From Photorhabdus khanii NC19 (GTDB lineage Bacteria; Pseudomonadota; Gammaproteobacteria; Enterobacterales; Enterobacteriaceae): a stretch of DNA of 64,000 bases. Below, piece by piece: positions 3,635 through 62,266 of this stretch. Numbering within the stretch: position 1 is the first letter of the stretch; each line of letters starts with the position of its first letter. The stretch covers positions 39,869-103,868 of the forward strand of contig NZ_AYSJ01000008.1 in NCBI RefSeq assembly GCF_000517265.1, in the 5' to 3' direction. A program made the position numbers and the translations under genes. A model generated the notes under the pieces. The model was not told the DNA's origin. It saw only the letters and a list, made by a program, of their open reading frames with translations, and made no database searches.

Positions 3635-4669
3635 ATGACATCCCGTCGAAAAGATAAAGGTAAAAGACTCACCGTTTTAACGGATGCAGAAAAATTCGCA
3701 CTGTATGGCCTGCCTGACTTTGATGAAGGCCAGCAGTTGGAGTATTTGTCGCTTACGGCAGATGAGCTGGCGCTGGCAAACAGTCGCCCCGAAATACTGT
3801 CGCAGATTTATTGTATCCTTCAAACGGGTTATTTTAAGGCCAAACACGCCTTCTTTCATTTTTCACCGAAGGATGTGGAAAGTGATTTCGATTTTGTGGT
3901 TCAGCGTTACTTTCGTGGGGTATCCCTTACCGACAGAACTATTACCACCCATGAATATTACGCCCAGCGTAAGCTTATTACCGACTTCTTTGGGTACCGT
4001 CAGTGGTCAGGTTCCGTTGGCCCGCAGCTGGATGCCCGCGCAGCGCAGATTGTGCATCGTGATATTACCCCTGGATTTGTTGCTACCGAACTTATCTGCT
4101 GGCTGAATGAAAAGAAAATCGTTCGACCAGGATATTCCACACTCCAGAAAATAATCAGTAAAGCACTGTCAACTGAGCGGCAACGACTGGCGGGCATACT
4201 GTTGTCCTCCCTTGATACAGAAACACAGCGCGTGCTGAATTCACTTCTGAAGAAAGATGATGCGCTGTCGGGACTGGCTGTGTTGAAGCAGGAAGCAAAA
4301 GATTTTCGGTGGCGACAAATGTCGAGGGAAAGGGATAAACGAAACCAGTTGGCACCGATATATCAGAAGGCTCGACAATTGCTACCCGAACTCGGGATTT
4401 CACAACAAAATTTGCTGTACTTCGCCAGTCTGGTCAACTTTTATACCATCCACGATTTGCGTAACCTCAAAACCGAACAAACCTGGTTATATCTGATGTG
4501 CTATATCTGGCTTCGCTACCGTCAGCTGTCAGATAACCTCACCAGCGCCATGATGTGGCACATGAAGCAGACAGAAGAATGCTCTTCATGTAGTCTATCC
4601 AGTCAAACCTGTGGTGACCGACGGGTCTGCTCAACTCCCCCTAATCCCCACTTCTGGTGCAAAAATTAA
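3635..4669 (+). pseudogene. tnpA: Tn3-family transposase, N-terminal third
   Basis: About 315 residues read as the N-terminal region of a Tn3-type TnpA: the DUF4158 start (LTDAEKFALYGLPDFDEGQQ), then FFGYRQWSG and WLRYRQLSDNLTSAMMW. The usual protein is near 1,000 residues. After MKQTEEC (about 4577) the reading continues into a short unrelated tail (CSSCSLSSQTC) and stops at 4667-4669, four bases into the 3' end of abgR. The catalytic DDE part is absent, so it is not functional. Confidence 0.85.
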
Positions 4670-5565
4670 TCACGACAATGCATTCGAAAAAGTCTAGCCA
4701 AATGTTCTCCCGCAGGAGTCAGCTTTGTATCTCTTCGTTGAACAAGACAAAAAGTTGCAAACGGCAACCGTTCTTTAAGGTTTAAAACCACAAATTGCTG
4801 ATTAAACAGAGTCTCATTAACCACATCCACAGCCACAATAGTCACAAAGTCACTTTCGGCAACTAAACTCATGCAAGCCATCAAGGTTTCACACGTCACA
4901 CTAAAGACAGGTGGATTATCCAGCGATGAGAACATCTCAAATAACCTGCGATAGTAGGTGTCTTTCGGTGTTGGCATGGTCCAGTCACAATCAACTAATT
5001 CGCCTAAAGAGGTTGCATTCACTTTTGGATGCCCTTTTCGTACAATCACTTTGTACTCTTTTTCCATCAGTTTTTCGAAGCTAAATTCTGCATCCAAACT
5101 ACCGGGATAATAGGTGTTTACGGTAAAATTCAGTTCACCTTGTCTGAGCTGAGGTAACATAGCCAATAACTGTCCCTCAACAACTCTTAACTTCACGGTG
5201 GGATAATCGCGGTGAAATTGTGTAATCACCTTCGGCATAATCGTACGTGCAATACTGCCAGCCACACCAATATTGACGACACCACCGCTCAAGCCAACGC
5301 GTTGCTGAATATCTTCCTGTGCGATTCGAAGCTCCTCAAGTATCAAACTGGCGCGTTGTAAAAAACTTTTTCCACACTCTGTCAAATGAATACCCTGGTT
5401 ACTGCGTATAAATAATTTTGCACCGAGTGAATCTTCCAGTTCGCGAATCGATTTAGTTAAAGCCGGTTGCGAGAGTAACAGAAACCGACTGGCCGCTCTG
5501 ATACTGCCATGGTGGTAAATTTCAACAAAAGCGCGCAGTTGATTGAGTTTTATTGGTGTCGCCAT
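4666..5565 (-). CDS. abgR: LysR-type regulator of the abg operon
   Basis: A 299-residue LysR protein. The winged helix-turn-helix occupies residues 5-64 (LNQLRAFVEIYHHGSIRAA, SQPALTKSIRELEDSLGAKL), and the rest is an effector-binding domain with VNIGVAGS near residue 95. It is divergent from abgABT with a 253-bp gap, the arrangement known in E. coli, where AbgR is inferred to control the operon. Its effector is not known from the sequence. The 3' end abuts the truncated transposase, so a recombination joint lies immediately downstream of it. Confidence 0.85.
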   Translation of the reverse strand: MATPIKLNQLRAFVEIYHHGSIRAASRFLLLSQPALTKSIRELEDSLGAKLFIRSNQGIHLTECGKSFLQRASLILEELRIAQEDIQQRVGLSGGVVNIGVAGSIARTIMPKVITQFHRDYPTVKLRVVEGQLLAMLPQLRQGELNFTVNTYYPGSLDAEFSFEKLMEKEYKVIVRKGHPKVNATSLGELVDCDWTMPTPKDTYYRRLFEMFSSLDNPPVFSVTCETLMACMSLVAESDFVTIVAVDVVNETLFNQQFVVLNLKERLPFATFCLVQRRDTKLTPAGEHLARLFRMHCRD

Positions 5566-5818
5566 TTTTTTCTTGCGATAACTTTTAATTATATAGATAA
5601 AGATAATTGTATCTTACTTTAACAGAATTCATTGTATACATTAAAAATCAGTAATAAAAAAACCGGGCTGTATTTAAAGTTCAACAAAAATATTTTTTAA
5701 TTATTAAAATAATAAAGTTAAAAAATAAACCAATTTAATTAAAATCAAACAAAATCAATATTGGTAAAATAAACCAAATATATTCTATTCTCCGCGATAA
5801 CTAAAAGAGATAATTATT
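5566..5818. promoter_or_regulatory. abgR-abgA divergent control region
   Basis: A strongly AT-rich gap between divergent genes. Two direct copies of AATAAACCAA sit at 5724-5733 and 5768-5777, 44 bases apart start to start, which would place them on one DNA face and makes them candidates for LysR half-sites. AAAGAGAT just before the ATG at 5819 could serve abgA as a weak ribosome site. Confidence 0.4.
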
Positions 5819-10470: not shown

Positions 10471-11145
10471 ATGAGTCAAATTACCCCTCAGTTAACAAAT
10501 ATGTGGGCTAGAAGTCATGAATCATGGTTTGTAAAAGATAAGAGACTTCGTTTTATATATGCAAATAAAGCATTTATTAAACTAAGTAAGTTACCTGAAC
10601 ACTTTGATGTCACAGGATATACTGCTAAAGAATTACCTACACCGTTTAATCATCTTGTTCACTTTTTTGAAGAACATGACCGTAAGGTATTACAAACTAT
10701 GCAACGAGTATCATCTATTGGAGCTCATCTTCAAAACGACGGCCAACAACTTAATCCCTATTTTTGTGAAAAATACCCGTTAATGGATGAAAAGAATCAC
10801 TGTGTTGGCATAATTTGTCATATTAAAGAAATAAATCATTTTTCAGTCCATCATTATATTAAACACTATACGTTTATTCCTGTTAAGCTTAGCCCCCCTA
10901 ATAATATATTGACAAAAAAAGAATGGACAGTAATCTTTTTATTCTGCCGCGGCATCAGTAATCAATGTATTGCTCATGAAATGAAAGTTTCATGCCGTAC
11001 TGTGGAAAAGTACTTCCAAGATATCTATGAGAAATTATCAATCGGAACAATTATTGAATTGAAACTATTTTGCGAAAAAAATAATTATAATCTCTATATT
11101 CCACCAAAATACGTTAAATCTATGAACTATTTTTTTCTGGATTAA
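10471..11145 (+). CDS. PAS4-LuxR regulator 1
   Basis: A 224-residue regulator. Residues about 10-125 form a PAS4-like sensor (SWFVKDKRLRFIYANKAF, then PLMDEKNHCVGIICHIKE). Residues about 148-205 form a LuxR helix-turn-helix (LTKKEWTVIFLFCRGISN, CRTVEKYFQDIYEKL). It has no autoinducer-binding domain, so it is a LuxR solo; large families of PAS4-LuxR genes are known in Photorhabdus, with ligands mostly unknown. It is the only member of this cluster on the plus strand and lies closest to abgT. It is most like the 11833 gene. Confidence 0.85.
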   Translation: MSQITPQLTNMWARSHESWFVKDKRLRFIYANKAFIKLSKLPEHFDVTGYTAKELPTPFNHLVHFFEEHDRKVLQTMQRVSSIGAHLQNDGQQLNPYFCEKYPLMDEKNHCVGIICHIKEINHFSVHHYIKHYTFIPVKLSPPNNILTKKEWTVIFLFCRGISNQCIAHEMKVSCRTVEKYFQDIYEKLSIGTIIELKLFCEKNNYNLYIPPKYVKSMNYFFLD

Positions 11146-11832
11146 GAATGATCCCTGTGCTCTATTATCAGGAATAAACCTCAAATGTCCGCCCGGAAGA
11201 TCAGGCGAGTGGGACACCCGTCACCGCCACCTGACAACCTCAGCCGGTATGCAAGCCGCTGAAGCCACGGCGATTGTTACGCAGACACAGGCAAAAGGCA
11301 AGGGATTCGGGAATCTACAGGATATCCTTTACTAATACATTGCTCTGAATGTATTGAAACAGCAAAGTTCATCGGCGATGTCTGGGTTGTCGGAATTGCC
11401 GGGATAAATGGTTAGGAACATACGGAGATTAGACGTTCTAAAGATCGGGAAAAAGCAAAACAGGCTTTATGGAATGCTCGCTACAGTGCTGGAATATCCA
11501 TCTTATAGTAGTGAGGTGCAACATCAATTATCCCTGCCAGGCACGGGTACGTGAATACAGTACAATGAATTAGGAGGACATTACCATTTCCGCCCAAACA
11601 AAATAAGGTTTTTAAGTTTGAGAACATTTTCAATACGGATATCATGCAACCAGTTATCGAAAAAATTGTACTCATAGGTAAAACGATCACCTAAAGCTAA
11701 GGTCATTAAGAGTTACCCGATATGGATTATCGGAGAAACCAATATTAATAGGCGCACTGGTAAAACTGCTTACCAGTACTGGTTATGTTATCTGAATCAA
11801 TAAAAAAGGCTTTTTCTGATATTTCCACAAAA
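11146..11832. other. Degenerate intergenic stretch between LuxR genes
   Basis: About 690 bases without an intact gene. The part near 11,180-11,420 is more GC-rich than its neighbours and holds short broken frames, for example one ending GKGFGNLQDILY and one reading LNVLKQQSSSAMSGLSELPG. They look like the remains of a phage- or IS-related gene I cannot name. The rest is AT-rich with no clear signal. Confidence 0.4.
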
Positions 11833-12540
11833 TTATAGTGGTTGATTTAATAAAAAATAGCCAATAAGTTTATAATATCTTGGCGGAACATATAGGTCAT
11901 AAGCCTTTTCTTTACAAAGGCATCTTAACTCCATAGCTGATCCGACAGAGAGTTTCTCATAGATAATTTCAAAATGTTTTTCCACAGTACGGCATGACAT
12001 CTTCATTTCCACAGCAATATCTTTATTACTGATACCGCAGCAAAACAGGTAAATAATCATCCACTCTTTCTCTTTTAATATATCGTTCGGAGGGCTAAAC
12101 TTAACAGGAATAAACGTATGGTGTTTAATATAATGAGATATTGCAAAATACTCTATTTCTCTGACATGGGAAGCTACACCAATACATTGATTATTTTCAT
12201 CCATTAATGGGAATTTGTTATAAAAGTAAGATCTAAATTGTTTACCTTTCCCTACTCGGTAAATCCCTATGGCTGATATTCTCTGCATATGCTTAAATAC
12301 CTTACGGTCGTGCTCTTCAAACAAATGGGCAAAACGACAAAATGGTGTGAGTAATTCTTTTTCAGAATACCCAATAACATCAAAATCTTTAGGGAGTTTG
12401 TTAACTTTCATAAATACCCTGTTTGCATAAATTAAACGGAATTCTCTATCTTTGACAAACCACAGTTCAGAACTTCTATCCCACATATTTGTTAATTGAT
12501 GAGTAATCAAAGGTAAATTTTTGCATCTCGATTGATTCAT
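11833..12540 (-). CDS. PAS4-LuxR regulator 2
   Basis: A 235-residue PAS4 plus LuxR protein, closely similar to the 10471 gene (shared ELWFVKD / FRLIYANRVF, HYIKHHTFIPVKFSPPN, MSCRTVEKHFEIIYEKLSVG). The helix-turn-helix near residues 160-215 is intact. It is on the opposite strand and faces its homologue across the 11,146-11,832 gap. It has its own 250-base upstream gap, so it is probably a separate unit from the three genes further up. Function as a transcription factor is firm; signal and targets are unknown. Confidence 0.85.
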   Translation of the reverse strand: MNQSRCKNLPLITHQLTNMWDRSSELWFVKDREFRLIYANRVFMKVNKLPKDFDVIGYSEKELLTPFCRFAHLFEEHDRKVFKHMQRISAIGIYRVGKGKQFRSYFYNKFPLMDENNQCIGVASHVREIEYFAISHYIKHHTFIPVKFSPPNDILKEKEWMIIYLFCCGISNKDIAVEMKMSCRTVEKHFEIIYEKLSVGSAMELRCLCKEKAYDLYVPPRYYKLIGYFLLNQPL

Positions 12541-12790
12541 GTATAGGTAATCCTTAAAACATTATTTTTAATTAAATTATTTAGTATATAAGTGCATATC
12601 CTTGCAGGTAATAATGTTCCTAATTTCTCATAAATAACAAATAACGCAAAAGACAGTATATAGAAGGCAGAAAGATAAATAATCGATAATGATTACATAT
12701 TACATTCGTTCTACGCTAGTCAATTAAGCATTCAAGATAAGATTACTTCATATTAATACGATAAACAGAGTAACCAAAGAATACAGGGCG

Positions 12791-13456
12791 CTAAGATAAT
12801 AAAAATTTTTCGGGTATATAGCGATTAAAACTATTGACTCGACAGTATTCTTCTAATTGAAGATGGGAATTAATACCTATTTTATGATATATCCTGGTCA
12901 CATGGTTTTCAATAGCACTAGAGTTAAGAGCCAATATTGTTCCAATCTGCTTTCTTGTATATTTCTGTAAAAAAAAGAAAATAATATCCCACTCACGCTC
13001 AGTAAAAAGATCTGTTGGCGGTTGAAGTAAAATGGATGAGGGGAATTTATCATAGTACTGATGTAAATAGGTTAATGAATAGTCTTTAGCTTTCCAACAA
13101 TGAAATATAACACCTATACAATCCCCATCTTCATGATAAAAAGGGAACTTTTCACAAAAATAAGACAACAAAACTTGCTCTTTACCAAACACATGCGTCT
13201 CAAGTGAGCATATTCTTTTATTTTTTTCCATCACTTTTTTATCATGATCAACAAACTCTTGTACAAATTTAGCCCCCTCCCAAGGCAGTTCATCATCATA
13301 CAATCCCTCATAAGCAAATGATTTTTGAAAATCATGAAGCAAACTTAATGCTAAGTTACCATAAATAAAACATGAAGAACTATCTTTTATTCCCCACGGC
13401 TCATTACTTAATTCCATTGTATTAATAATCTGAGGCGATATTGTATAGTTCTTCAT
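12791..13456 (-). CDS. PAS4-LuxR regulator 3
   Basis: A 221-residue member of the same family, a tandem paralogue of the 13481 gene (shared PWGIKD, CFIYGNLAL, HDKKVMEKNKRICSLETHVF). The recognition helix has diverged: SAIENHVTRIYHKIG replaces the usual RTVE core, so its DNA target is likely different. The 24-base gap from the upstream gene suggests one transcript with 13481. The PAS part keeps the tryptophan and FIYGN motif typical of this group. Confidence 0.8.
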   Translation of the reverse strand: MKNYTISPQIINTMELSNEPWGIKDSSSCFIYGNLALSLLHDFQKSFAYEGLYDDELPWEGAKFVQEFVDHDKKVMEKNKRICSLETHVFGKEQVLLSYFCEKFPFYHEDGDCIGVIFHCWKAKDYSLTYLHQYYDKFPSSILLQPPTDLFTEREWDIIFFFLQKYTRKQIGTILALNSSAIENHVTRIYHKIGINSHLQLEEYCRVNSFNRYIPEKFLLS

Positions 13457-13480
13457 AAATACTCCGTGATAATTTGAAAT

Positions 13481-14167
13481 CTAAATAAACATTCTGCTTT
13501 CTGGGTGCACAAATTTTTCCGGCACATAGAGATCAAAATCATTAAGGCGACAATATTCTTCCAATTGATAACAGGAATTAACGCCGATCTTTTTATATAT
13601 CCGAAATATATGGGTTTCAACAGTGCGATAGGAGATATTCAATATCCGCCCGATTTGTTTACTCGTGTATTTATGCAAGGAGAGAAAAATAACATCCCAC
13701 TCCCGCTGCGTAAATAAATCAGTTGGCGGCTGAAACATAATGGATGCAGGAAGTTTTCCATGATACAAACGAGTCAGTGAGAAATCCTGGGCTTCCCATG
13801 CATGAAAAAGGATGCCAATGCACTCATTTTTATCATCATATATTGGAAATTTTTCCAAAAAATAAGATGACAGAATTTTTTCTTTCCCAAAGACATGAGT
13901 TTCAAGTGAACATATTCTTTTATTTTTTTCCATCACTTTTTTATCATGTTCAACAAATTCTTTTGCAAACTCAGCACCATCCCAGGGGAGTTCATCATCA
14001 TAAAGCCCCTCAAAATCAAATGAGTCTGAGAAATTCTTGAGAGATTTTAAGGCCAGATTACCATAAATGAAGCATGAATTTTTGTCTTTGACTCCCCATG
14101 GATCATTATTTATTCCCATGGTATTGACTATTTGCGATGAAATAGTTATCTGATTAGTGCTTTTCAT
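13481..14167 (-). CDS. PAS4-LuxR regulator 4
   Basis: A 228-residue PAS4-LuxR protein. The helix-turn-helix reads TSKQIGRILNISYRTVETHI and is canonical, unlike the neighbouring paralogue at 12791. The PAS domain (PWGVKDKNSCFIYGNLALKS) is nearly the same as in that gene, so the two arose by local duplication and then split in the DNA-binding half. It lies 37 bases after the 14205 gene and probably belongs to a 14205-13481-12791 operon. Confidence 0.85.
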   Translation of the reverse strand: MKSTNQITISSQIVNTMGINNDPWGVKDKNSCFIYGNLALKSLKNFSDSFDFEGLYDDELPWDGAEFAKEFVEHDKKVMEKNKRICSLETHVFGKEKILSSYFLEKFPIYDDKNECIGILFHAWEAQDFSLTRLYHGKLPASIMFQPPTDLFTQREWDVIFLSLHKYTSKQIGRILNISYRTVETHIFRIYKKIGVNSCYQLEEYCRLNDFDLYVPEKFVHPESRMFI

Positions 14168-14204
14168 AAAAAAATCCTATTGTACAGTTATGTTAATGAT
14201 AAAT

Positions 14205-14897
14205 TTATAACTCCCTACTACCAATAGTAATAAACTTTTCAGGAACATAACGATCTAATTTATTTTCTTTGCAGAAATCTTTCAATTCTATATGCAGCGG
14301 CAGATTAAATTTTTGATAAATTGATTGAATATGACTAACAACATCTTCTGTACTCATCATTAATGCTTCACTGATACTTTCTTCATCCAGTGAACGCAGG
14401 GTCAGAAAGAGCACTTCCCACTCAGTCTGTGTCAGTATGTCGTTAGGCGGCGTGAATTCCAGCGTTGCCGGAGATGTTCTTTCATAGTAGTAAGAAGTAG
14501 AAAAGTTTTGTATTTCGGATATCTGAAAAATGATCCCGATGCAATGACTATTCTCATCGCAGAGTGGATATTTATCACAACGATAGCTTTGCTTAACTTG
14601 CTGTTTTCCAACCGGATAAGTATTCAGTGAAGTCACTCTTTGCATTGTTTGAAGAACTTCCTGGTCCTGGCGGCGGAATTCTTCTGCATATTTTGCAATG
14701 GGTGAAGGTAATTCACCTATTGCAAGCCCGGTAATATCGAAATCTTCAGGCAAGTTGAGCAGTTGATAGAAAGCCGGATTAGCATAGATAAACCTTGATT
14801 GCAGATCTTTAGCTCCCCATGGCTGATGACTTTTTTCCCACATATGAATTAATTGCGGATCGATATTACTCGGTTGATTGGTTTTCTTATTTGACAT
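14205..14897 (-). CDS. PAS4-LuxR regulator 5, divergent helix-turn-helix
   Basis: A 230-residue protein with a clear PAS4 domain (PWGAKDLQSRFIYANPAF, PLCDENSHCIGIIFQISE). The C-terminal part aligns with the LuxR fold (LTQTEWEVLFLTLRSLDE), but the recognition region STEDVVSHIQSIYQKFN lacks the RTVE signature. It may have lost standard DNA binding or recognise a different site. It is the first gene of the probable three-gene operon, with GGAG just before its ATG. Confidence 0.75.
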   Translation of the reverse strand: MSNKKTNQPSNIDPQLIHMWEKSHQPWGAKDLQSRFIYANPAFYQLLNLPEDFDITGLAIGELPSPIAKYAEEFRRQDQEVLQTMQRVTSLNTYPVGKQQVKQSYRCDKYPLCDENSHCIGIIFQISEIQNFSTSYYYERTSPATLEFTPPNDILTQTEWEVLFLTLRSLDEESISEALMMSTEDVVSHIQSIYQKFNLPLHIELKDFCKENKLDRYVPEKFITIGSREL

Positions 14898-15322
14898 AGA
14901 AACTCCTTACCTATTTAATAATATACTCTGAAAGATAGGCCACAATAATTTATTCGTCAAAAAACACGATGATTTTATTCTATTTATAAAAGATAATATT
15001 ATATCATAATGAAATTATTCACTGCATTGACTTATAATCATAGTGATACTTTCATATGTAAACCAATTTCACTGTCCATCCGATTGTTCACAAATAATAT
15101 TTTTGCGCAAAATTTCATCGAACCTTTTTAATTATGCAGATATCTATGCAATACCAATCTTGCCTGCTCGCATGTATTATATGGGCATGATATGCTTATG
15201 TATTCTGGTAAGAGCCATGAATAACTATTTGTAGGTAAAATTTATAGGTAAACAATATTGAATAAAAAAGAAGATGTAAAGCCAAAACCGATTTTTTTCT
15301 CAAATTTGCGAGAAACGACTCA
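14898..15322. other. AT-rich intergenic region
   Basis: It holds the start regions of two divergent genes. Short open frames here have no family features. I see no repeat or RNA signal. Confidence 0.4.
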
Positions 15323-15904
15323 ATGACAAATTCGTACGAAGAAAAAACCACTAAAAAAGGTAAAAAAAGTAATAAGCCAGATCGCGTGATTATTGACGAT
15401 AGGATCACCCATTTCGGTCAGCGTTTACGTGAAGCTATGCAAGATGAACCCACCGCTAAATTTGCCCGACGTTGTGGTCTGTCCGATAAAGCAATCTGGA
15501 GCTATTTGGATAGTTTAACTTACCCTTCAATTGATAAAGTGGCTGTACTTGCCCACGCAAGCAACACTTCGATAGAATGGTTAATCTTAGGGATCCATGA
15601 CGATAGGGTCACTCATTTCGGTCAGCGTTTACGTGAAGCCATGCAAGATGAACCCATCGCTACATTTGCCCGGCGTTGTGGTCTGTCAGAAACAGCAATC
15701 TGGAGCTATTTGGGTGGTTTAACTTACCCTTCAATTGATAAAATGGCTGCACTTGCCCACGCAAGCAACACTTCGATAGAGTGGTTAATTCTAGGCTTAG
15801 ACACCGATGCTAATAAACACAAACAAAAATTAGATACGATGACACCGGAAGACGCGAAGTTGTTATTAAACAAAATTTTAGATGTGATATCAACATATAA
15901 GTAA
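15323..15904 (+). CDS. Helix-turn-helix protein with a tandem internal duplication
   Basis: A 193-residue protein with two almost equal units of 68 residues. Each holds THFGQRLREAMQDEP, a KFARRCGLS or TFARRCGLS helix-turn-helix and LAHASNTSIEWLILG, as in phage CI-type repressors. The DNA repeats with a 204-base period (copy 1 from about 15,398, copy 2 from 15,602). A Lys-rich head and a helical tail (LNKILDVISTYK) flank the units. Two linked DNA-binding domains on one chain would bind a direct repeat as a monomer. It is followed by a strong terminator. Confidence 0.8.
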   Translation: MTNSYEEKTTKKGKKSNKPDRVIIDDRITHFGQRLREAMQDEPTAKFARRCGLSDKAIWSYLDSLTYPSIDKVAVLAHASNTSIEWLILGIHDDRVTHFGQRLREAMQDEPIATFARRCGLSETAIWSYLGGLTYPSIDKMAALAHASNTSIEWLILGLDTDANKHKQKLDTMTPEDAKLLLNKILDVISTYK

Positions 15905-15926
15905 CATCAAACTTTCTCTGTATTCC

Positions 15927-15947
15927 CCCCTACTTAGGGGATTTTTA
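15927..15947 (+). terminator. Terminator of the tandem HTH gene
   Basis: Stem CCCCT-ACTT-AGGGG followed by ATTTTT, 22 bases after the stop codon. Confidence 0.75.
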
Positions 15948-15982
15948 AGCACTAATAAGCGTACCACTCTGCCAATCACATT

Positions 15983-16007
15983 AAAAAAGGGCTGTGATGT
16001 TCAGCCC
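15983..16007 (-). terminator. Terminator on the minus strand for the recombinase gene
   Basis: Read on the minus strand, GGGCTG-loop-CAGCCC is followed by TTTTTT. It lies just over 100 bases past the stop of the recombinase gene. Confidence 0.7.
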
Positions 16008-16113
16008 CGCCAAAAAATTATCCATCTAGAAAGTCCAATGCGATTCCAATAATAAAATCTGTCATGAAATGAATTTTTACTTTTTTGACTAACATAAGAT
16101 TAACACTGGCCTG

Positions 16114-16734
16114 TTAAACAGACATATCGTCAAAAACGGAGTATTTTGATCCGAAATGCAATACCCGGCGGCGATTTCGCTGATTATTCCAGACGCCATT
16201 AAAACGTTCAGCATTACTTGCGGTATACAGCACGGTGTGGCGAATATTACGATGCCCAAGATAATCTTGTATCAGCCGGGTATCTACTCCCCTGTCTGCA
16301 AGAGCAAAACCACAGGCATGGCGCAGCATGTGTGGATGTGAATTAACAGCAATATTAGCCAATCGCCCCAACTGGCTAATAATTTTGTAGATGCGCTGAC
16401 GGGTCAATGGTTGCCCATAACGTGACAGAAATAACCAGTTACTTTCGGCTCCCCGAAGGGTTTTACGTACTTTGAGCCACGCTTTTATTAACTGAATTTC
16501 ATAACCTAAGAGCGGATGATTCGTACACAATCCGCCTTTTAAGCGCTGAATGTACAGAGTTCCCCCCTCTAAATCTAGATCAGATAATCGTAGATATCGT
16601 GCTTCGCTCACACGTAAGCCATGAACAAAACTCATATAAATTAGACAATAGTCACGCGCACTATTTGTGCTCATTTTTGCCATTTCCAATAAGCTTTCTA
16701 CTTCCAATTGCGTCAGATGTTTTCGTTGTCCCAT
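16114..16734 (-). CDS. FimB/MrpI-type tyrosine recombinase
   Basis: A 206-residue stand-alone catalytic domain, the size of FimB, FimE and MrpI. Catalytic residues are visible: Arg in FVHGLRVSEARYL, the HMLRHACGFALAD box, GHRN and the Tyr in TVLYTASN. The family flips promoter segments of fimbrial operons. No fimbrial gene or matched inverted-repeat switch is visible here, so it may be an orphan or act elsewhere. Confidence 0.85.
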   Translation of the reverse strand: MGQRKHLTQLEVESLLEMAKMSTNSARDYCLIYMSFVHGLRVSEARYLRLSDLDLEGGTLYIQRLKGGLCTNHPLLGYEIQLIKAWLKVRKTLRGAESNWLFLSRYGQPLTRQRIYKIISQLGRLANIAVNSHPHMLRHACGFALADRGVDTRLIQDYLGHRNIRHTVLYTASNAERFNGVWNNQRNRRRVLHFGSKYSVFDDMSV

Positions 16735-17082
16735 TCGATATCCTTAACACCTCCCCGAAAACGGCAGGGAAAATAATTATTATATAGAAGAAAAAGCTGC
16801 GCTAAGTGTAGCGCTTAGCACAGCCAAATTAGGAAAATTAAGTGGTAATAATTATGATAGTATATCTAACTTAAGGTCACTTCTGATTATAATAAGATAA
16901 ATCGCCATTTTTAAACGTAAAAACTACTGAAATTGAATTTTTGCTTTTCCTACCAACAAAATAGAAAATGATTTCCAATTAATTGTATTGAACGGTAGAA
17001 TAACGTCCAAACATTTTTCATAATGATGGACAATCTTATCAGTAAGATTTAATATAAATTCGATAAAAGGAATCTATATTTT
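16735..17082. other. Intergenic region with an inverted repeat
   Basis: About 350 bases between the recombinase and the broken CRISPR-associated gene. It holds an imperfect inverted repeat at 16796-16824 (GCTGCGCTAAG and CTTAGCACAGC, 10 of 11 pairs) which could be an operator or recombination site. AAAGGAA precedes the ATG at 17083. Confidence 0.4.
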
Positions 17083-17988
17083 ATGACCTCTGCTCATCCA
17101 GTCGAGATAGTTTATAGCGAACTCACAAACATCATGGACCCGGCACTGGCACGAATGGATTTTACATTTACAGATAAGCTCTGTTCATGCTGCGGAAGAA
17201 TACCCGCAGAATTTAATGCGATGTCAGTCAGTGGACTGAATGGATACAAAATACCATTTAACCACTGTAGAGCTTGCCAAAGTTTTTTTGTATCGGATAT
17301 CGCAATAACAGGGATTGAGAATCCTCAAAAACCAAAGACCAGTCAAAAATTTGGCATGTGGTCAGGTGTCGGGGCAATTATTGAGCCCGGCATTCGAACC
17401 CGGTTTCTGGCCCCACCTGGCGTAGTCGCAAAACTTCCAATGTATTTCACTGACAGAATCCACGTCATGACAACCACGATGAATCATCATCTGTCATTAT
17501 TACAAACGCTTGATCTCGTTTTTCCTCTGCTCTATATATAAAATTTTGGCAAAAAAACGGATGAGCGTGTACGTTCACTTAAATTAAGCCCATCGCCTTC
17601 TGAACTAATTTATTACTCAGACACATTAATGACATCAACGCAGAGTGCAATAAAAACCATCGATCTCAAAAGGACGAAAGAAAAACAACTGGCCGTATTA
17701 GACGAAGAAATCCAGGCCCGTAAGAATAAGAAACAGGAAACCCGCGAAAATATCCGCCGCACACTTCATCCTTACGAAGGTTTTATTACCGGTGCTGAAT
17801 TGAAACACAGAAGGCATTTGAAAGGCGTCACACAGATAGAAGCGGTTTTTTTCCTGGCCGCCCTGATACGTTTCGCCGGTCATCCCCGTCTGGGTGGACA
17901 TCACCATCACAACTGCGGACTGGTTGAAACAGAATGGGATGTTGAAAAATGGAACAATGCTAAAATGCCAGATTTCACGGTATATTAA
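17083..17988 (+). pseudogene. Csf1-Csf2-like type IV CRISPR gene remnant
   Basis: One frame of 302 codons broken only by TAA at 17539-17541. The first part has a CSCCG ... CRACQ zinc-ribbon and QKFGMWSGVGAIIEPG, then after the stop NFGKKTDERVRSLKLSPSPS. From memory this is the layout of Csf1, the zinc-finger large-subunit protein of type IV systems. The later part (PYEGFITGAELKHRRHLKG, FLAALIRFAGHPRLGGHHH, NCGLVETEWDV) is like the Gly-rich end of Cas7/Csf2. A deletion seems to have joined the end of csf1 to the end of csf2. DinG, Csf3 and Csf5 are absent. Two CRISPR-like repeats follow at once. The assignment is by motif and context, not by search. Confidence 0.5.
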
Positions 17989-18033
17989 GATGGACTGCAA
18001 ACCCCATTAATCAAGCATTTTTTTTAAAAACAG

Positions 18034-18121
18034 GTGTTTCCCTTGCCTCAGAGGGTTCCTGATACGTCCCTAATAGAACAACAATGACCCCAATTGTTTC
18101 CCCTGCGTGCGGGGGTCCCCT
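18034..18121 (+). CRISPR. Degenerate two-repeat CRISPR remnant
   Basis: Two 28-base units at 18034-18061 and 18094-18121 are exactly 60 bases apart, leaving a 32-base spacer (18062-18093). The period equals that of type I-E and type IV-A arrays. The units share 19 of 28 bases. The stem CCCT/AGGG in the first is CCCC/GGGG in the second, a paired change that keeps the hairpin. No further unit is found on either side. It lies 45 bases after the csf-like remnant. Confidence 0.55.
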
Positions 18122-18138
18122 AAAGCACTTGGAACGGT

Positions 18139-19872
18139 TTAAATTCCCCGCCAAGCTTGCAACTGAAACTCATACCCGCAATCCTGGCAACGAATTTTCG
18201 GATTATCCGGGCAGACGACGATAAATCCCACGGCATCCACCTTCGAAGACTGACAGCGAAGACAGTGAACCCCTTGTCTTCCCAGGGTAAACCCCGCCAT
18301 ATACCGTGGGTATGGCGTAACAGGCTGATCCCCTAATTCATCAAACAGCGGTTGCAGCCGTTTACGGTAGTAATTGAATACCTCTATCTTTCTGAGCTTC
18401 CCGATCGCCGAAGCAGGCGTAGGCCGCCACTGTACCCACAATAAAACCAGCGTGGCATACAACCGATAATAATATCGTCTTTGCAAATTATAAAACAATG
18501 AGCCCACGCTGGCAGCGAACGTCTTATCACAGAACCGGCAGTAATATTCATCCCGATGAGAAGTTGTCACCTGCCGATTCCCGCACCGGGGACATTCATA
18601 CACCGCCCCCAAAGTCGGATTTTGTTCATCCAGACGATCAGCTAATGCCCGAAGTACCGGTTCTCTTTGCCATACATGTCTTAAATGCTGGTATTGCGCT
18701 TGCGTGGTATGCGCAAACAAGTGCCGGAACCAGTCCGGTTCCGGCACCTGGTCATTCGGTGTTTTCTCAGCAAACGGATCAACCCCCTTAGGTATATCCG
18801 GATACATCACAAACTGATGCTGGCACGCGTCACAGTGAACCATGGGGTTACCCGCTGGCATCTCCTCAACGTAATTCAGCCACGATGATTGACACGCCGG
18901 GCAGCTTATTCCCTGTTGACCCGGCGAAAATCCCAGCAGATAACGGGGATACGGCGTCACCGGACGGCCACTCGTCAACGCCAGAACCGGCGCCAATCGC
19001 TGGCGATAACGTTCCCACGTAGATTTTTTATGACAGTGACTTATTCGTATGGCGTTTTCAATACACCAACAGCCCCACAACGTGACCAGGACCGCATATA
19101 AACGGACATGCAGGTGATGATCAATCAAATGGAATGGCGTATCGAAATAGTCAGCATGGTCACATTGGCAGGAATGACAATAGTACGCCTGATGTGTATG
19201 TTTCGTCGGTTTTACGGCCTGTTTTTCCTGGCTGCCTCTGAGATGATACTTATCAAGTTCCGCGACCAGTTCACGCAATACCGGCTCACGTTGCCAGATT
19301 TGACACACCAGGGCATATTCCTCTACATCCAGGTGAGAAAAAGCTTGCGGATACCAATCAGGCAGCGACAAAGCGTCAACAAGGCTGTTTTCCATCCCAT
19401 CAAAGCGCAGCGACACGGCATAACGGGCCACTGCCATGGATTCACTGCGGTCACTGAATTCATCCTGTACCGGCACCCACTCCTGTCGGTAACGCACCGG
19501 GCGGTCAGCCTGTTCATCGGGTTTAAGGCAATTCCCCCCATTGGCATACATGTGCGGCAAGGCCAGCAAGACGGTAACCTGTTGCGTCTCTGCCGACAGC
19601 ACCGTCGCCAGTTCCAGCACCGGGGGTAAGCGATCCGCCTGATCGGTATCAATCAGCGATCCGTCAGCAAAGCGCACACACAGGTGATCGGCTTTCAACT
19701 GCCCCAACGCCAGCATCGCTTTGTCAAACACAGCGGTCAGCACGCCCCAGGGATGCAGTCCCCCAAGTCGGGCAACGCATTCATGGGTATACGCCTCCCA
19801 GCGGGCCTGTTGCTGAAATTGTTGGGGCGACAGGATAGTCCCCGTCACCCATAACGGACGATCAATTTTCAT
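18139..19872 (-). CDS. TssK N-terminal domain fused to tandem zinc-ribbon (DUF746-like) domains
   Basis: A 577-residue protein from MKIDRPLWVTGTILSPQQF, the typical start of the type VI baseplate protein TssK. TssK likeness holds for about 200 residues. Then come two similar units of roughly 180 residues. Each has WQREPVLR, a CxxC zinc-ribbon pair, RLYA-LV-LW, PVTPYPRY-GF-G-QG and a second CxxC pair (CPACQSS with CDACQHQF; CLRCQSS with CQDCGYEF). This resembles DUF746. The shell-forming C-terminal half of TssK is missing. The ATG at 19870-19872 has AAGGGG upstream and sits 4 bases after tssC; a longer upstream frame overlaps tssC and is less likely. Confidence 0.75.
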   Translation of the reverse strand: MKIDRPLWVTGTILSPQQFQQQARWEAYTHECVARLGGLHPWGVLTAVFDKAMLALGQLKADHLCVRFADGSLIDTDQADRLPPVLELATVLSAETQQVTVLLALPHMYANGGNCLKPDEQADRPVRYRQEWVPVQDEFSDRSESMAVARYAVSLRFDGMENSLVDALSLPDWYPQAFSHLDVEEYALVCQIWQREPVLRELVAELDKYHLRGSQEKQAVKPTKHTHQAYYCHSCQCDHADYFDTPFHLIDHHLHVRLYAVLVTLWGCWCIENAIRISHCHKKSTWERYRQRLAPVLALTSGRPVTPYPRYLLGFSPGQQGISCPACQSSWLNYVEEMPAGNPMVHCDACQHQFVMYPDIPKGVDPFAEKTPNDQVPEPDWFRHLFAHTTQAQYQHLRHVWQREPVLRALADRLDEQNPTLGAVYECPRCGNRQVTTSHRDEYYCRFCDKTFAASVGSLFYNLQRRYYYRLYATLVLLWVQWRPTPASAIGKLRKIEVFNYYRKRLQPLFDELGDQPVTPYPRYMAGFTLGRQGVHCLRCQSSKVDAVGFIVVCPDNPKIRCQDCGYEFQLQAWRGI

Positions 19873-19876
19873 GTTG

Positions 19877-21409
19877 TTACCCCTTGGCTTTCGGCATCTG
19901 GGAAACCAGGGACAGATTGACGTCCAGTCCTTCCACCTGAAAATGGGGCACTGCGTACAACCGGACCCGGAAGAAACCGGGGTTGTCGTCAATATCTTCA
20001 ACAATGACGCGCGCTTCGCGCAACGGGTAAGAGGCCTGTAAATCGTCAGAAGGATCGGTCATTTCGGTCACCAAGGTGTTGATCCAGTTGTTCAACTCAA
20101 TTTCGAGCAGACGCCTGTCCTTGGTGGTGCCGATGTTCTCCCGCTGGATTAACTTCAAATAGTGGGAAATCCGTGACAGCAGAAAAATATAGGGCAGACG
20201 CGCATTGATACGGCTGTTGGCTGTGGCTTCATGCGTGTCGTACAACGCCGGTTTTTGCGCAGAGTTGGCTGAAAAGAAGCAGGCGTAATCGCGGTTTTTG
20301 TAGTACGAGAGCGGCATAAAACCCAGATTGGCAAATTCAAATTCGCGGGTTTCTGGGATCATCACTTCTGACGGAATTTTGACCTGATTACCGGTCCCCA
20401 GATCGTAGAGATGGATCGGTAAATCCGTGACCGCGCCTCCCGCCTTCGGCCCGCGGATCTGCACACACCAGCCATTGCTGACAAAGCTTCTGACCAGGTT
20501 GGCGGCAAACGCAAACGCGGCATTGGCCCACAAATATTTATCGTGATCCGGCCCGCTGACCTCTTCGACATAGTTAAACGTGCGTACCGGTACGGTATCC
20601 GGGCCATAGGGCAGACGCCCCAACACACGCGGCATCGTCAGGCCGATATAGCGGGCATCGTCGCTGTCGCGGAACGCTTGCCACTTGATGTATTCAGCGC
20701 GGTCAAAGTAGCTGCCGATGTCTTTAATCGCCGCCACTTCTTCCATGGTTTTTTTACCAAAAAAGGCTGGTCCAACAGCGCCAATGAAAGGCATATGCGC
20801 CGCGGCTGATACTTTGGCGATATTACGCAACAAGGCAATATCCTGCGAGCCGGCATCAAATTCGTAATTGGCAACCACCGAGCCGATAGGTTCCCCACCC
20901 GGCGTATCGTATTCCTGAATGTAAGTGTGGTGATAGAAACCACTTTGGATAATTTCCGGCGCGTCATCAAAATCCTGCCGTAAATCTTCCTTGGTCACAT
21001 CCAGGACTTCGATTCTGACGTTTTGACGAAAATCCGTCCGGTCAACCAAAAATTTCAGGCCACGCCAGGCAGATTCGATTCGCTGGAATTCTGGATGATG
21101 CATCACCACATCCAACTGACGGCTGATTTGGCTGTCCAACTCACCGATATGGTGGTCCAACAAGGTTTTGTCCAGCCGCTCGACTTTTTGTGCTGAGGCT
21201 TTCAGCAGATTGAGAAAAACACGGACGGCGGCGGTCACCCGCTCATCCGCCGTGACATCAGCCAGCGCGTCACTATGTTGAAAGAATTCAATGTCGCTCA
21301 GCTGTTCGACTGGCTGTAAATGGATTTTCTCAAACAATGATTGATAGACACTACCCTCAGCGTAGGTCGTGGTGACCGCAGCAGCAGCGGCTTGTTCTTG
21401 CACAGTCAT
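19877..21409 (-). CDS. tssC: Type VI secretion sheath large subunit TssC/VipB
   Basis: A 510-residue full-length protein. Motifs include FLNLLKASAQKVERLDKTLL, HHPEFQRIESAWRGLKFLV, GSVVANYEFDAGSQDI, RFSD-like FRDSDDARYIGLTMPRVL and the C-terminal RVRLYAVPHFQVEGLDV. With TssB it builds the contractile sheath around the Hcp tube. It is 30 bases after tssB. No deletion or stop is seen, so the sheath pair could still be made even though the cluster seen here is incomplete. Confidence 0.9.
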   Translation of the reverse strand: MTVQEQAAAAAVTTTYAEGSVYQSLFEKIHLQPVEQLSDIEFFQHSDALADVTADERVTAAVRVFLNLLKASAQKVERLDKTLLDHHIGELDSQISRQLDVVMHHPEFQRIESAWRGLKFLVDRTDFRQNVRIEVLDVTKEDLRQDFDDAPEIIQSGFYHHTYIQEYDTPGGEPIGSVVANYEFDAGSQDIALLRNIAKVSAAAHMPFIGAVGPAFFGKKTMEEVAAIKDIGSYFDRAEYIKWQAFRDSDDARYIGLTMPRVLGRLPYGPDTVPVRTFNYVEEVSGPDHDKYLWANAAFAFAANLVRSFVSNGWCVQIRGPKAGGAVTDLPIHLYDLGTGNQVKIPSEVMIPETREFEFANLGFMPLSYYKNRDYACFFSANSAQKPALYDTHEATANSRINARLPYIFLLSRISHYLKLIQRENIGTTKDRRLLEIELNNWINTLVTEMTDPSDDLQASYPLREARVIVEDIDDNPGFFRVRLYAVPHFQVEGLDVNLSLVSQMPKAKG

Positions 21410-45816: not shown

Positions 45817-47682
45817 TTATTGGGTCAATATGGGCAGACGGCCTTTAACAATGGTTCCGCCTGAAATCTTGGCTATGTATTCCAGGTTAGGAAGCATCCC
45901 AAGTAGCTGGGCTGGGAATAGATCCGCTTCCTCTTCCATCAAACGCTCGCCTTGGTTGCCTCCGTGCATAATGGGTTCCTTACCATCGGAGTTCTGGCCT
46001 TGGGTTCGCATGACATACTTGAGCCTGGTCTTCGGCAGGTTATCCGCGATGTATTCCTGGGTTTCTCCATCAACAATACGAAGAGCAAAAGTGTTGTTGA
46101 TGTTCCCCAGCACCTGGAGTGCTTTGTCTTTGCTACCCAGTCGAGCAGCGAAGTCAGCAAAAGTCTGGGTTGCAACGAAGAGACGAAGTTTCGCGCCGCG
46201 CCCCTTGTTCAGAAGCTGGATGAATGGGTCGTTGATCACCTCAGCAGCCTCGTCCACAAATATGTTTACGGGTCTGTTGTTGACCCCATAGTTGTATCTG
46301 TCACCCGCAACTGCTGTCAGGTCAGACAGGAAAATGGACCCCATAGCACTACCAACCATGTTATCGGTCAGAGAGTCGAGTCCCAGATAAGCTACTTGGG
46401 AGTTATTGATAATCTTGGCGGAGTCGGTGATTTGACGTTCATCGCTAAGATCAGAAGAGTCTGGCGACAGGAGCGGCCCAAGCTCTCCAGAAGTAAGCAT
46501 ATTCATGATTGGCAGAAGGTTCGCCACCATTTTGGAGAAGTGAGTTTGGTCGTGTTGGAACATCGACAGCAGACCTTCAAGATCTGAGTTTGGATGTTCA
46601 GGCTGGATGACGTCGTAATAAAACTTCATCAAAGCGAAAGCGATCTTCTCACGAGAACCATTTTTGGCTTTCTCCAAGTAAGCCGCAGCTTCTGCTTCCC
46701 AATCAGGCATCACTCGTTCGGAGTAGGCTTGAACGGATTTGATAACCAGACCAGCAGCTCCACCTTCAAGGAAGCGACGGAGCTTTGTCAGATTAGGACG
46801 GTCATGAGTGATTACCAAACCCTGAGCGATATTGTTCAGTGCTTGCCAACCAAATGATTTGAACGGGTCAGCTCCTGCTTCTGACGGGATCAACGCGGCC
46901 AAACGACTTGCTATCTCTGTCACACGGGTGAAGTTCCGTAGAGGGTCAATACGCACAGATTCTTCTGGGAATGCTGGATGGAATGAGACGAACCTTTCCG
47001 GTTGTCCCATAGCCTCACAGGCACGTCGGGCATTATCCCGCATCTCCTTATCCCCTTTCGGGTCAATGATGATCACGGCCTCCCCACGCAGAATAGCCTG
47101 TGAGATCAGGATGTCGAACATACGGGTCTTGCCCGAGCCGGTGGTCCCTACAATTAGAGTGTGCCCCTCTGTATGCTTGAGAGGCTGCATCAATTTTTCT
47201 TCTTTTGGCTCAACCCCGTGAATCCAAGGCTGACCGATTGGCAACTCTTTTCTCTTACCCTGTATTTTTCGGACAACCTTTTTAACCGTCGATTCTTTTC
47301 CGACGATAGAGGTCCAATCTCGTTTAAGGATCTCAAACACGCGCTGGGCATGACGGTTTTCCCACAGGAATCCACTACCAAGCCACATATCTTCCGGCGT
47401 GTCCTTGATGTACTTCTGGAGCTCCGTAATAGAGATAAACTCTAAGTCTCGGCCCTTCAAATGCTTTTGGAGCAAGTGGAGCTTGATAGCCTTAGGCAAA
47501 CGAGCCATTGCCATCACTCCACAGATCCCCGTCATCCAATAAAAGGGCTCTGGAGGCATAGTGCTGACCTGCTCCACGGCCAAAGCAGCACCGGACGCAG
47601 CAAGCCAGCCTGCTACAGCATTTTTTTCATAGTTAGGCCGCCACGGCATCTCGTAGGCGAGCGGGTCATAACTCATTGTCAT
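45817..47682 (-). CDS. traD: Type IV coupling protein TraD (VirD4 type)
   Basis: A 621-residue ATPase. N-terminal hydrophobic stretch (NAVAGWLAASGAALAVEQVS) anchors it; Walker A is TLIVGTTGSGKTRMFDIL (about residue 175); EAVIIIDPKGDKEMRDNA and NIFVDEAAEVINDPF are further ATPase motifs. It brings the relaxase-DNA complex to the secretion channel. Its ATG overlaps the traI stop (ATGA), so relaxase and coupling protein are translated together. Full length. Confidence 0.9.
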   Translation of the reverse strand: MTMSYDPLAYEMPWRPNYEKNAVAGWLAASGAALAVEQVSTMPPEPFYWMTGICGVMAMARLPKAIKLHLLQKHLKGRDLEFISITELQKYIKDTPEDMWLGSGFLWENRHAQRVFEILKRDWTSIVGKESTVKKVVRKIQGKRKELPIGQPWIHGVEPKEEKLMQPLKHTEGHTLIVGTTGSGKTRMFDILISQAILRGEAVIIIDPKGDKEMRDNARRACEAMGQPERFVSFHPAFPEESVRIDPLRNFTRVTEIASRLAALIPSEAGADPFKSFGWQALNNIAQGLVITHDRPNLTKLRRFLEGGAAGLVIKSVQAYSERVMPDWEAEAAAYLEKAKNGSREKIAFALMKFYYDVIQPEHPNSDLEGLLSMFQHDQTHFSKMVANLLPIMNMLTSGELGPLLSPDSSDLSDERQITDSAKIINNSQVAYLGLDSLTDNMVGSAMGSIFLSDLTAVAGDRYNYGVNNRPVNIFVDEAAEVINDPFIQLLNKGRGAKLRLFVATQTFADFAARLGSKDKALQVLGNINNTFALRIVDGETQEYIADNLPKTRLKYVMRTQGQNSDGKEPIMHGGNQGERLMEEEADLFPAQLLGMLPNLEYIAKISGGTIVKGRLPILTQ

Positions 47683-51433: not shown

Positions 51434-51648
51434 GAAATCACACAGAGCCTGGCCGAAAGGCTGAGCTCTTCGACGCTTTATTAATCATGCTCCAGGAGGC
51501 TGGTTCGAGGGGTAATACCCACGAAGCGGCCTATGTCATTTCTGGAGTCCTCGAAAACCTTTCCAGAGACTATCCCGAGATAAAAGTTCTTGCCCAAAAC
51601 TGGACCGAGCTGGCGAATCTGGAATCAAAGATGAAGGGAGCTGCGTAA
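51415..51648 (+). CDS. Small protein between the lipoprotein and topB
   Basis: A 77-residue helical protein (MQSSEIRNHTEPGRKAELFD, YVISGVLENLSRDYPEIKVL). It starts inside the end of the lipoprotein gene (19-base overlap) and its TAA overlaps the topB ATG (TAATG), so all three are coupled. No family recognised. Confidence 0.6.
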   Translation: MQSSEIRNHTEPGRKAELFDALLIMLQEAGSRGNTHEAAYVISGVLENLSRDYPEIKVLAQNWTELANLESKMKGAA

Positions 51649-60253: not shown

Positions 60254-61429
60254 TTAGCCTTCGACACTAAGGAGTTCAATGTCTGACACAGGCACATGAA
60301 CATGCTTTTCCTTTCCTTCACTATCGAGCGTTTTGACCCAGACAGTAGATGGAACCAGAGCAACACGGTCTGTCATGATGACTCCGCGTTTAGTTTCACC
60401 GTCCAGGTTAACGTTGACAGCAATAACCAAACTGTCGGCTCGGACATTCTTCCACTCTTTGTCCTTCGGCAGAGGAGGAAGAGCATCACCCCCTTCATCA
60501 TCTTTGTTCTTTCCGCTGTTAATAGGCTGCTGGACTGGCTCTTTGTCCTCTTCATCGCGCAAAGGGTCCAAATCATCGTCATTCAGTCCATCATGGTCTG
60601 AACCATCTTCCAACCCCTTCTGGTTATGGTTCTGCTCGGCATTACCCAGTTGTTCCTCCGTACCATTCCCGTTTGAGTTTAGGGTTTGGTCATCGGTATT
60701 TCCATCACCAGGCTCGTCATTGTTGCCGGAGCCAGTCAGAGGGCCTTTTTCCATTTCTTCTTTGATGCGCTTGGCATCATTCAGAAGCTCACGACTTTGT
60801 TTCCGGGTGATCCCGTCAGACATAGCCACAGCACAGACGGCCCGGCAGCGTTCTTCGTTCATGTCGAACAAAAGACGAAGATTATTCAGGGTTTCTGTGT
60901 CAGAACATATTTCATTATCGTACAACTCGCGCACACAGTCAGGTAGCTTTAGCAATGACAAATGCGTAGATACGAAAGTGATGTTTTTCCCGAGGCGATC
61001 AGCAATGTCTTTTTGCTTCCAACCGTCTTCGATAAACAGATTCAATGCCTCGGCTATTTCTACCGGCGTTAGGTCATCTCTTTGGATGTTTTCGATCAAC
61101 TCACCAGCAGTTTCGTCCAGATTATTCTGGACCTTATCATTGACAACTAGGTCGATAGTATCAATACCAGCATGTTTACATGCTCTCCAACGACGCTCCC
61201 CCTTCTGGATGACGAACTTTCCTTCCTCATTCTTCGGGAACACGATGATAGGAGACTGCTGCCCCTCGGTCAGCATAGTCGCTGCCAACTCTTCAATGTT
61301 ACGGAAGCGCTTACGCACCTGAACTTTGGAAACAACGTCGTCAACTGGCACTGTAAGAACTTCTTTACCTTTCTTGCCTTTGGCGGCTTTAGCAAGATCC
61401 GACAGGCCTCTCAAATTATTTAATGCCAT
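60254..61429 (-). CDS. parB: Partition protein ParB
   Basis: A 391-residue ParB-family protein. Motifs: QVRKRFRNIEELAATMLTEG, SPIIVFPKNEEGKFVIQKGE and RRWRACKHAGI (ParB CTPase box), LIENIQRDDLTPVEIAEAL, and a helix-turn-helix QKDIADRLGKNITFVSTHLS. A long acidic Asn/Asp-rich linker precedes the C-terminal domain. It binds parS and works with ParA. The start lies 3 bases after parA. Intact. Confidence 0.9.
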   Translation of the reverse strand: MALNNLRGLSDLAKAAKGKKGKEVLTVPVDDVVSKVQVRKRFRNIEELAATMLTEGQQSPIIVFPKNEEGKFVIQKGERRWRACKHAGIDTIDLVVNDKVQNNLDETAGELIENIQRDDLTPVEIAEALNLFIEDGWKQKDIADRLGKNITFVSTHLSLLKLPDCVRELYDNEICSDTETLNNLRLLFDMNEERCRAVCAVAMSDGITRKQSRELLNDAKRIKEEMEKGPLTGSGNNDEPGDGNTDDQTLNSNGNGTEEQLGNAEQNHNQKGLEDGSDHDGLNDDDLDPLRDEEDKEPVQQPINSGKNKDDEGGDALPPLPKDKEWKNVRADSLVIAVNVNLDGETKRGVIMTDRVALVPSTVWVKTLDSEGKEKHVHVPVSDIELLSVEG

Positions 61430-61432
61430 CGT

Positions 61433-62218: not shown

Positions 62219-62266
62219 ACCCACCTCAATTTTGGTTTCTTGTAGGTGATTTATACCACCCCCAAA

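Follow-up and report, generated by a model that had tools for sequence, protein, structure and literature searches.

Positions 17083–18122 of the window (the whole 64,000-nucleotide stretch of the Photorhabdus khanii NC19 genome analysed here) very probably represent what is left of a type IV-A CRISPR-Cas locus in which both ends are present and the middle is missing, and which is predicted to be non-functional. The locus is closest to IV-A3; the surviving protein pieces share only about 50% identity with any intact relative, and the exact subtype is therefore uncertain. The parts of the relic, together with broken loci found in other genomes, are listed in Table 1.

Table 1. Parts of the relic in the window, and broken csf loci of other genomes
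Feature	Position	Strand	Genome	Details
csf1 (cas8-like), 5′ part	17083..17541	+	window	codons 1-152; ends at in-frame TAA 17539-17541
csf1 beyond stop codon	17542..17680	+	window	about residues 150-197; PDLC01723 positions 154-229, E 4.2e-8; pairwise alignment
csf1/csf2 junction	17623..17690	+	window	Csf1 and Csf2 tblastn matches overlap at 17623-17679; position approximate
csf2 (cas7), C-terminal part	17690..17949	+	window	about residues 205-297; PDLC01725 (Csf2_1_IVA3), E 2.2e-38
csf2 last codons and apparent natural stop	17950..17988	+	window	92% over 39 bp to G011, L046:12102-12140
Leader remnant between csf2 and array	17989..18033	+	window	45 bases; position, partial alignment with G011
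CRISPR repeat unit 1, decayed	18034..18062	+	window	10/29 mismatches to L003 repeat; in phase with unit 2
Fossil spacer, 31 nt	18063..18093	+	window	same spacer in G011, with 5/31 changes
CRISPR repeat unit 2	18094..18122	+	window	fits L003 repeat up to 18116; last 6 bases mismatch
Truncated T6SS TssK fused in frame to double zinc-ribbon protein	18139..20004	-	window	outside relic, 16 bp from array
Relic L074	8624-9232		G193, Superficieibacter sp. HKU1	Csf1 1-64 joined to Csf2 36-189
Relic L085	9314-9606		G193, Superficieibacter sp. HKU1	Csf1 1-99 in two frames, with stop codon
Relic L086 (= L052)	4646-5570		G338, S. electus	Csf1 1-249 in two frames, plus dinG 291-362
Relic L084	9109-9378	-	G020	Csf1 1-90

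Read as open reading frames, the sequence from the ATG at 17083 is interrupted once, by the TAA at 17539–17541, and then stays open to the TAA at 17986–17988. The first-pass annotation had described this single stop in a frame joining a zinc-ribbon protein to a Cas7-like end, and had proposed a profile search of the restored frame. That search matched both Csf1 and Csf2 profiles of PADLOC, and so put names to the two ends: the product of 17083–17541 gave E values of 1.9e-41 with PDLC01112 and 7.6e-39 with PDLC01723 (Csf1_2_IVA3), and the downstream part matched PDLC01725. Searches of the PDB gave the Csf1 chain 8rc2_G (E 5.6e-41) and the Csf2 chain 8rc2_A (E 1.2e-33); at E <= 0.01 the only PDB relatives by sequence were the Csf1 and Csf2 chains of 8rc2 and three further entries, all four being among the structure codes of a paper on IV-A1 and IV-A3 complexes (PMC11519345). 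No Csf1 match was obtained with NCBIfam and Pfam, and the NCBIfam Csf2 model TIGR03115 scored far under its cut-off (E 2e-4); the identification of both pieces therefore rests on PADLOC, the PDB and alignment.

Csf1 residues 4–197 were aligned by tblastn to 17095–17679, and the window thus holds the N-terminal two-thirds of Csf1; the Csf2 match covered about residues 183–308. All five cysteines that are invariant in the Csf1 alignment are retained in the 17083–17541 piece, which is up to 49.7% identical to plasmid Csf1. The window retains 51 of the 61 Csf1 residues, and 34 of the 43 Csf2 residues, that are invariant among all other rows, whereas intact rows, left out singly, keep 95–100% and 90–100% respectively. 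At variable sites the window residue occurs in another row at 45 of 87 positions (Csf1) and 48 of 76 (Csf2). The loss of otherwise invariant sites is as expected once constraint is lost, and these sequence comparisons suggest that most of the divergence arose under constraint and some afterwards.

Two plasmid loci, L002 of Klebsiella pneumoniae and L003 of Citrobacter youngae, share the order csf1-cas6-dinG-csf3-csf2-array; PADLOC named cas6, dinG and csf3 in both, and also Csf1 and Csf2 in L003. The expectation that Csf1 and Csf2 are encoded in this order in type IV-A loci holds in that csf1 comes first and csf2 last, but the two are not adjacent in L002 and L003. The frame in the window is joined because the middle of the locus is absent: by L003 coordinates about 3.9 kb is missing, comprising the end of csf1, cas6, dinG, csf3 and the start of csf2. 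No cas6, dinG (csf4) or csf3 (Cas5) was detected in the 64-kb window with the L003 proteins (tblastn, E <= 0.01), and the locus is therefore classed as a relic and not as a working member of IV-A3. Since 17950–17988 resembles the csf2 end of G011, a sister species of the same genus, the TAA at 17986 is apparently the natural stop of csf2, with about 25–28 codons missing before it. A second small deletion of that size would have joined these last codons to the preceding part of csf2, and similar short motifs at its two edges suggest that it arose by a slip between direct repeats.

Two repeats were found 45 bases past this stop, as the first-pass annotation had stated. Their sizes, given there as 28 bases with a 32-base spacer, become 29-nt units with a 31-nt spacer when the boundaries are set in register with the 29-nt repeat of L003, and the units lie 60 bp apart from start to start. 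The paired change that it had noted in the stem, from CCCT/AGGG in unit 1 to CCCC/GGGG in unit 2, is present; both units fold to a small hairpin with a stability no better than that of shuffles (z -0.29 and -0.73). Its view of the array as type IV-like was borne out by the agreement of the repeats with the intact IV-A3 array of L003 in both sequence and spacing. Unit 2 differs from the L003 repeat at 7 of 29 positions overall and at 2 of the first 23. When a 23-base pattern derived from L003 was allowed up to 3 mismatches, unit 2 was the one match in the 64-kb window, and none was obtained in 100 shuffles. At 57–64 bp spacing, a pair of units of such quality was seen a single time in the window and never in 300 order-1 Markov windows. 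Taken by itself unit 1 is weak, as one unrelated place in the window reaches its score. A general repeat search of the window did not report the pair, and three Rfam matches in 15000–20000 were all far under the family cut-offs.

The sister species G011 carries an orthologous, differently decayed relic in a single contig of 5,147,098 bases. This copy was missed by searches with the protein pieces and was found by a DNA search. It contains csf2 codons 304–340 at L046:12018–12128, followed by the stop, both repeats and the spacer; no csf1 match was found in it. Between the window and G011 there are 2 differences of 29 in unit 1, 5 of 31 in the spacer and none in unit 2, of which 18 bases are left in G011; with 2 changes in 47 repeat bases against 5 in the 31 of the spacer, the differences are too few to conclude that the repeats were under selection. 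Unit 2 of G011 is cut short by an element whose transposase resembles the IS1182 family (E 8.9e-76, just under the model cut-off). Part of the window relic is shared by G001, namely about 11 bases of unit 2 together with the flank on the right; there, a partial fragment matching IS4-family transposases (E 7.9e-10) abuts the second half of unit 2. The same G001 contig starts with a long tandem run of cttaatag (L047:1-200).

G011 keeps csf2 codons that are partly lost from the window, together with the same stop, repeats and spacer, which indicates two ruins of one ancestor. The ortholog in G011 places the relic before the split of that species from the species of the window and, together with the short stretch and flank in G001, makes it probably old and vertically inherited. 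The spacer is itself old, to judge from its presence at the orthologous place. Our assignment of the relic to the chromosome is likewise probable and rests on the G011 ortholog, the window's own contig being 103,868 bases long. The description of the locus as a decayed type IV system is supported by the stop codon, the loss of about 3.9 kb by comparison with L003 and of a few codons near the end of csf2, and the orthologous ruin in G011. The possible fossil spacer of the first-pass annotation is upheld in the same way, although the search of plasmids and phages that it had suggested gave no target: the window spacer matched 0 plasmid records and 4 phage records (E = 5), the G011 version matched 5 plasmid and 8 phage records (E = 1 to 6), none accepted as a target, and both versions combined as a single degenerate pattern had 0 matches in viral contigs.

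We propose that a whole csf1-cas6-dinG-csf3-csf2-array locus was at one time inserted into the chromosome of a shared ancestor, that a deletion of about 3.9 kb then ran from inside csf1 to inside csf2, and that the array shrank to two repeats. The stop codon, small deletions and insertion sequences would have come later and separately in each species. Type IV-A systems use Cas6 to process the array transcript into guides; the guide complex is built from Csf1, Csf2 and Csf3, and recruitment of the DinG helicase leads to silencing of target DNA, which belongs mostly to rival plasmids (described in PMC11519345 and PMC8175902). The intact ancestral locus would have worked as these systems do; without Cas6, Csf3 and DinG, the relic would be capable of none of these steps. 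Entry by way of a mobile element is plausible. The carriage by such an element that had been put forward from the sequence was not substantiated, as no plasmid backbone was seen bordering the relic, which is common to G011 and in part to G001.

It is also conceivable, though unlikely, that the locus was already a fragment when a piece of plasmid brought it in, and that it was never functional in this host. This account overlaps with the one just given and differs from it on when the middle was lost. Partial loci do occur, an IV-A3 locus with array and csf2 only being described on plasmid KY913897.1 (PMC7434947). The ancestor of the window and G011 copies, on the other hand, held csf1, the csf2 C-terminus, the leader and the array, which points to an internal deletion, and such a deletion could still have preceded arrival.

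Because a single stop is all that interrupts the fused frame, an expressed product is possible. It is very improbable, however, that the remnant is partly alive, with the 152-residue Csf1 piece acting as a DNA-binding protein or as a dominant-negative one against incoming type IV systems. Such a role would agree with the ATG-to-stop frame of 152 codons and its five alignment-invariant cysteines, with the part taken by the N-terminal zinc-finger domain of Cas8 in IV-A PAM recognition (as given in PMC11519345), and with the retention of the csf1 start in 5/5 chromosomal relic loci, a count that the Csf1-profile search is biased toward finding. Against it, G011 shares the relic yet has no csf1 match, 10 of the 61 otherwise invariant sites of Csf1 are lost in the window, and L085 and L086 are broken within csf1.

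In its general form the repeat is similar to those of type I-E. That the repeats are a separate feature lying beside the csf relic by chance, such as an I-E array of the host or an intergenic palindrome of a repeated kind, is hardly credible even with so poor a match in unit 1, because unit 2 has 7 of 29 mismatches to the L003 IV-A3 repeat and 12 of 29 to the E. coli I-E repeat, the repeats directly follow the csf2 end in the place of an IV-A3 array, and the one Cas1 detected in this genome belongs to type I-F. A search with the array stretch 17940–18125 gave some match at E <= 0.1 in 55 of 198 family genomes; among the matches listed outside the window's own place, in which G011 did not figure, the best (E 2.7e-4) was 26 bases, mostly of the A/T-rich leader. 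With Cas1 as the only gene tested, no Cas1e was found in the genome; a host array as the source of the repeats was rejected, and the locus is not assigned to type I-E.

Searches with the Csf1 and Csf2 pieces against 12 genomes of the genus matched only the window's genome, and none of the intact versions that might have been expected in related strains was found among the 12. In the family, the independent model PDLC01725 matched two genomes out of 295, that of the window and G193, while profiles built from our alignments, which include the window's own Csf1 and Csf2 rows, matched Csf2 in 2 of 392 genomes and Csf1 in 4. Apart from the window's genome, the Csf1 profile gave relics in 3 of 391, amounting to four loci that are all broken (Table 1); PADLOC confirmed L074, L084 and L086, and relics are present in 2 of 4 genomes of the genus of G193. 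The L074 relic had 17 matching places in 5,426 E. coli genomes, all on plasmids and none chromosomal. A single functional csf1-csf2 fusion common to the window and L074 was considered and rejected: the junctions differ, and the Csf2 parts (183–308 and 36–189) hardly overlap. Two strict peptide patterns run over 84,980 species genomes gave 2 loci, that of S. electus (L052) and an intact csf1-to-csf2 locus (L051) in an 80,579-base contig of Klebsiella grimontii. A Csf1 pattern had 122 matches in viral contigs, none of them a relative.

No plasmid record covered 80% of the relic stretch, and the matches consisted of short csf pieces at 67–84% identity. Within 60 rows drawn from 555 ranked plasmid records, those at 80–84% were csf1 stretches of 56–66 bases; one match of 96% was set aside as chance (27 bases, E 0.3). 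Csf1 proteins of 245–265 residues were 46–54% identical to the window piece. A Csf1 tree of 17 rows contained a supported group of five (95/99), formed by L002, L003, P0006, P0008 and L051. The window fell outside this group on a very long branch and in an unsure place, 10 of the 14 inner branches of the tree being open, three rows less than 35% filled and the bootstrap not settled. Six Csf1 proteins from Salmonella and unnamed contigs (P0002, P0004, P0005, P0007, P0009 and P0010) also lay outside the supported group, at forks left open, and five of the six were the rows nearest to the window by tree path.

The relic in the window is neighboured by TssC and by the truncated TssK–zinc-ribbon fusion. 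TssK is cut at about 19383, and in G001 the zinc-ribbon part is a separate gene of 417 codons beside T6SS genes, followed by a VasL/ImpA_N T6SS gene; the T6SS cluster of the window was probably ruined by deletion. Among the other relics, L074 is neighboured by Rhs genes, the csf1 piece of L084 lies among Rhs frames, and L086 is neighboured by a DUF4123 gene and a Tle1-like gene that ends 388 bp before csf1. A haemagglutinin-repeat gene is located 5.4 kb from L085, with phosphatase and transposase genes between. All five loci thus adjoin T6SS, Rhs or haemagglutinin genes or have them no more than 5.5 kb away, a raw co-occurrence in which one genome contributes two loci and its genus a third; it is suggestive of a shared weapon-gene neighbourhood. 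A broader reading, which we hold to be possible but doubtful, is that type IV-A once lived and repeatedly died in enterobacterial chromosomes within weapon islands (T6SS, Rhs and contact-dependent toxins) as a lineage apart from plasmid IV-A3, so that the window's relic and the four other broken loci would be its remains, and its survivors would be the proteins of Salmonella, Citrobacter and Dickeya.

Several other features were observed in the window. Just upstream of the relic is a tyrosine DNA invertase of the fimbrial-switch type (16114–16734, minus strand; NCBIfam NF007370), and invertase-like stretches occur elsewhere in the same genome and in 12/12 genomes of the genus. Five PAS-LuxR-type regulator genes are arranged in tandem at 10471–14897 (one recognised by Pfam, the rest by eye), and a helix-turn-helix protein at 15323–15904 (plus strand) consists of two nearly identical halves, with a DNA repeat of about 93%. 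A strong match to LuxC was obtained in 12 of 12 genomes of the genus, which together with the PAS-LuxR genes suggests Photorhabdus, although LuxC-like matches were also seen in 9 of 14 control genomes. The region from about 31000 to 64000 looks like an integrative conjugative element, with a TraG/TraD-like coupling protein (45817–47682), a MobH relaxase (47679–50648), topoisomerase III (51648–53837) and ParB and ParA (60254–62224); plasmids L002 and L003 type as MOBH, as does the relaxase of this putative element. A likely polymorphic toxin with an EndoU-nuclease C-terminal domain is located at the right edge (63148–63999, minus strand).

Current accounts regard type IV-A as a plasmid-against-plasmid system, and two surveys of enterobacterial IV-A loci describe no chromosomal case (PMC7434947, PMC6965323). 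In a literature search with most subscription papers outside its coverage, we found no report of this relic or of type IV CRISPR in Photorhabdus, nor a paper linking type IV-A csf genes with type VI secretion. A vertically inherited and probably chromosomal fossil that retains a spacer would mean that IV-A loci can enter chromosomes and be lost there. It raises the questions of how long chromosomal IV-A loci persist and at what cost or benefit; the weapon-island neighbourhood, if it held against a proper background, would suggest an entry route.

The known systems closest at hand are the IV-A3 loci of plasmids (Klebsiella L002 and Citrobacter L003; PDB 8rc2), whose Csf1 and Csf2 are homologous to the window pieces at about 50% identity. 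The window has recognisable Csf1, though truncated by the stop and the deletion, and the C-terminal part only of Csf2; csf1 comes first and csf2 last before the array, and the 29-nt repeat, its stem and the period of about 60 bp are shared. I-E-like repeats of 28–29 nt with spacers of about 32 nt, as in IV-A3, are represented by the two units, the first of them weak. Unlike the plasmid loci, the window lacks cas6, dinG, csf3 and most of the array, its csf1 carries a stop, and it is probably chromosomal, plasmid carriage being usual for IV-A3 and not strictly defining. The six Csf1 proteins from Salmonella and unnamed contigs are 47–54% identical to the window piece, and Csf2 relatives were found in Salmonella (P0019), Citrobacter sedlakii (P0016) and Dickeya (P0025); these proteins are longer than the window pieces and mostly full length. 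For the Salmonella Csf2, no plasmid record reached 80% identity, the best-ranked being at 67.7%. L074, L085, L086 and L084 resemble the window in a broken csf1 with its 5′ end kept, and L074 also in a csf1-csf2 fusion, but their junctions are different and the stretches fetched contain no repeat within 9 mismatches of those of L002 and L003. An orphan CRISPR of Pseudomonas aeruginosa PAO1 has been proposed as a type IV remnant, likewise in a genome that lacks a complete type IV locus (PMC11687729). As set out there, that claim rests on a DinG protein, whereas the present one rests on Csf1 and Csf2 sequence, the array and an ortholog.
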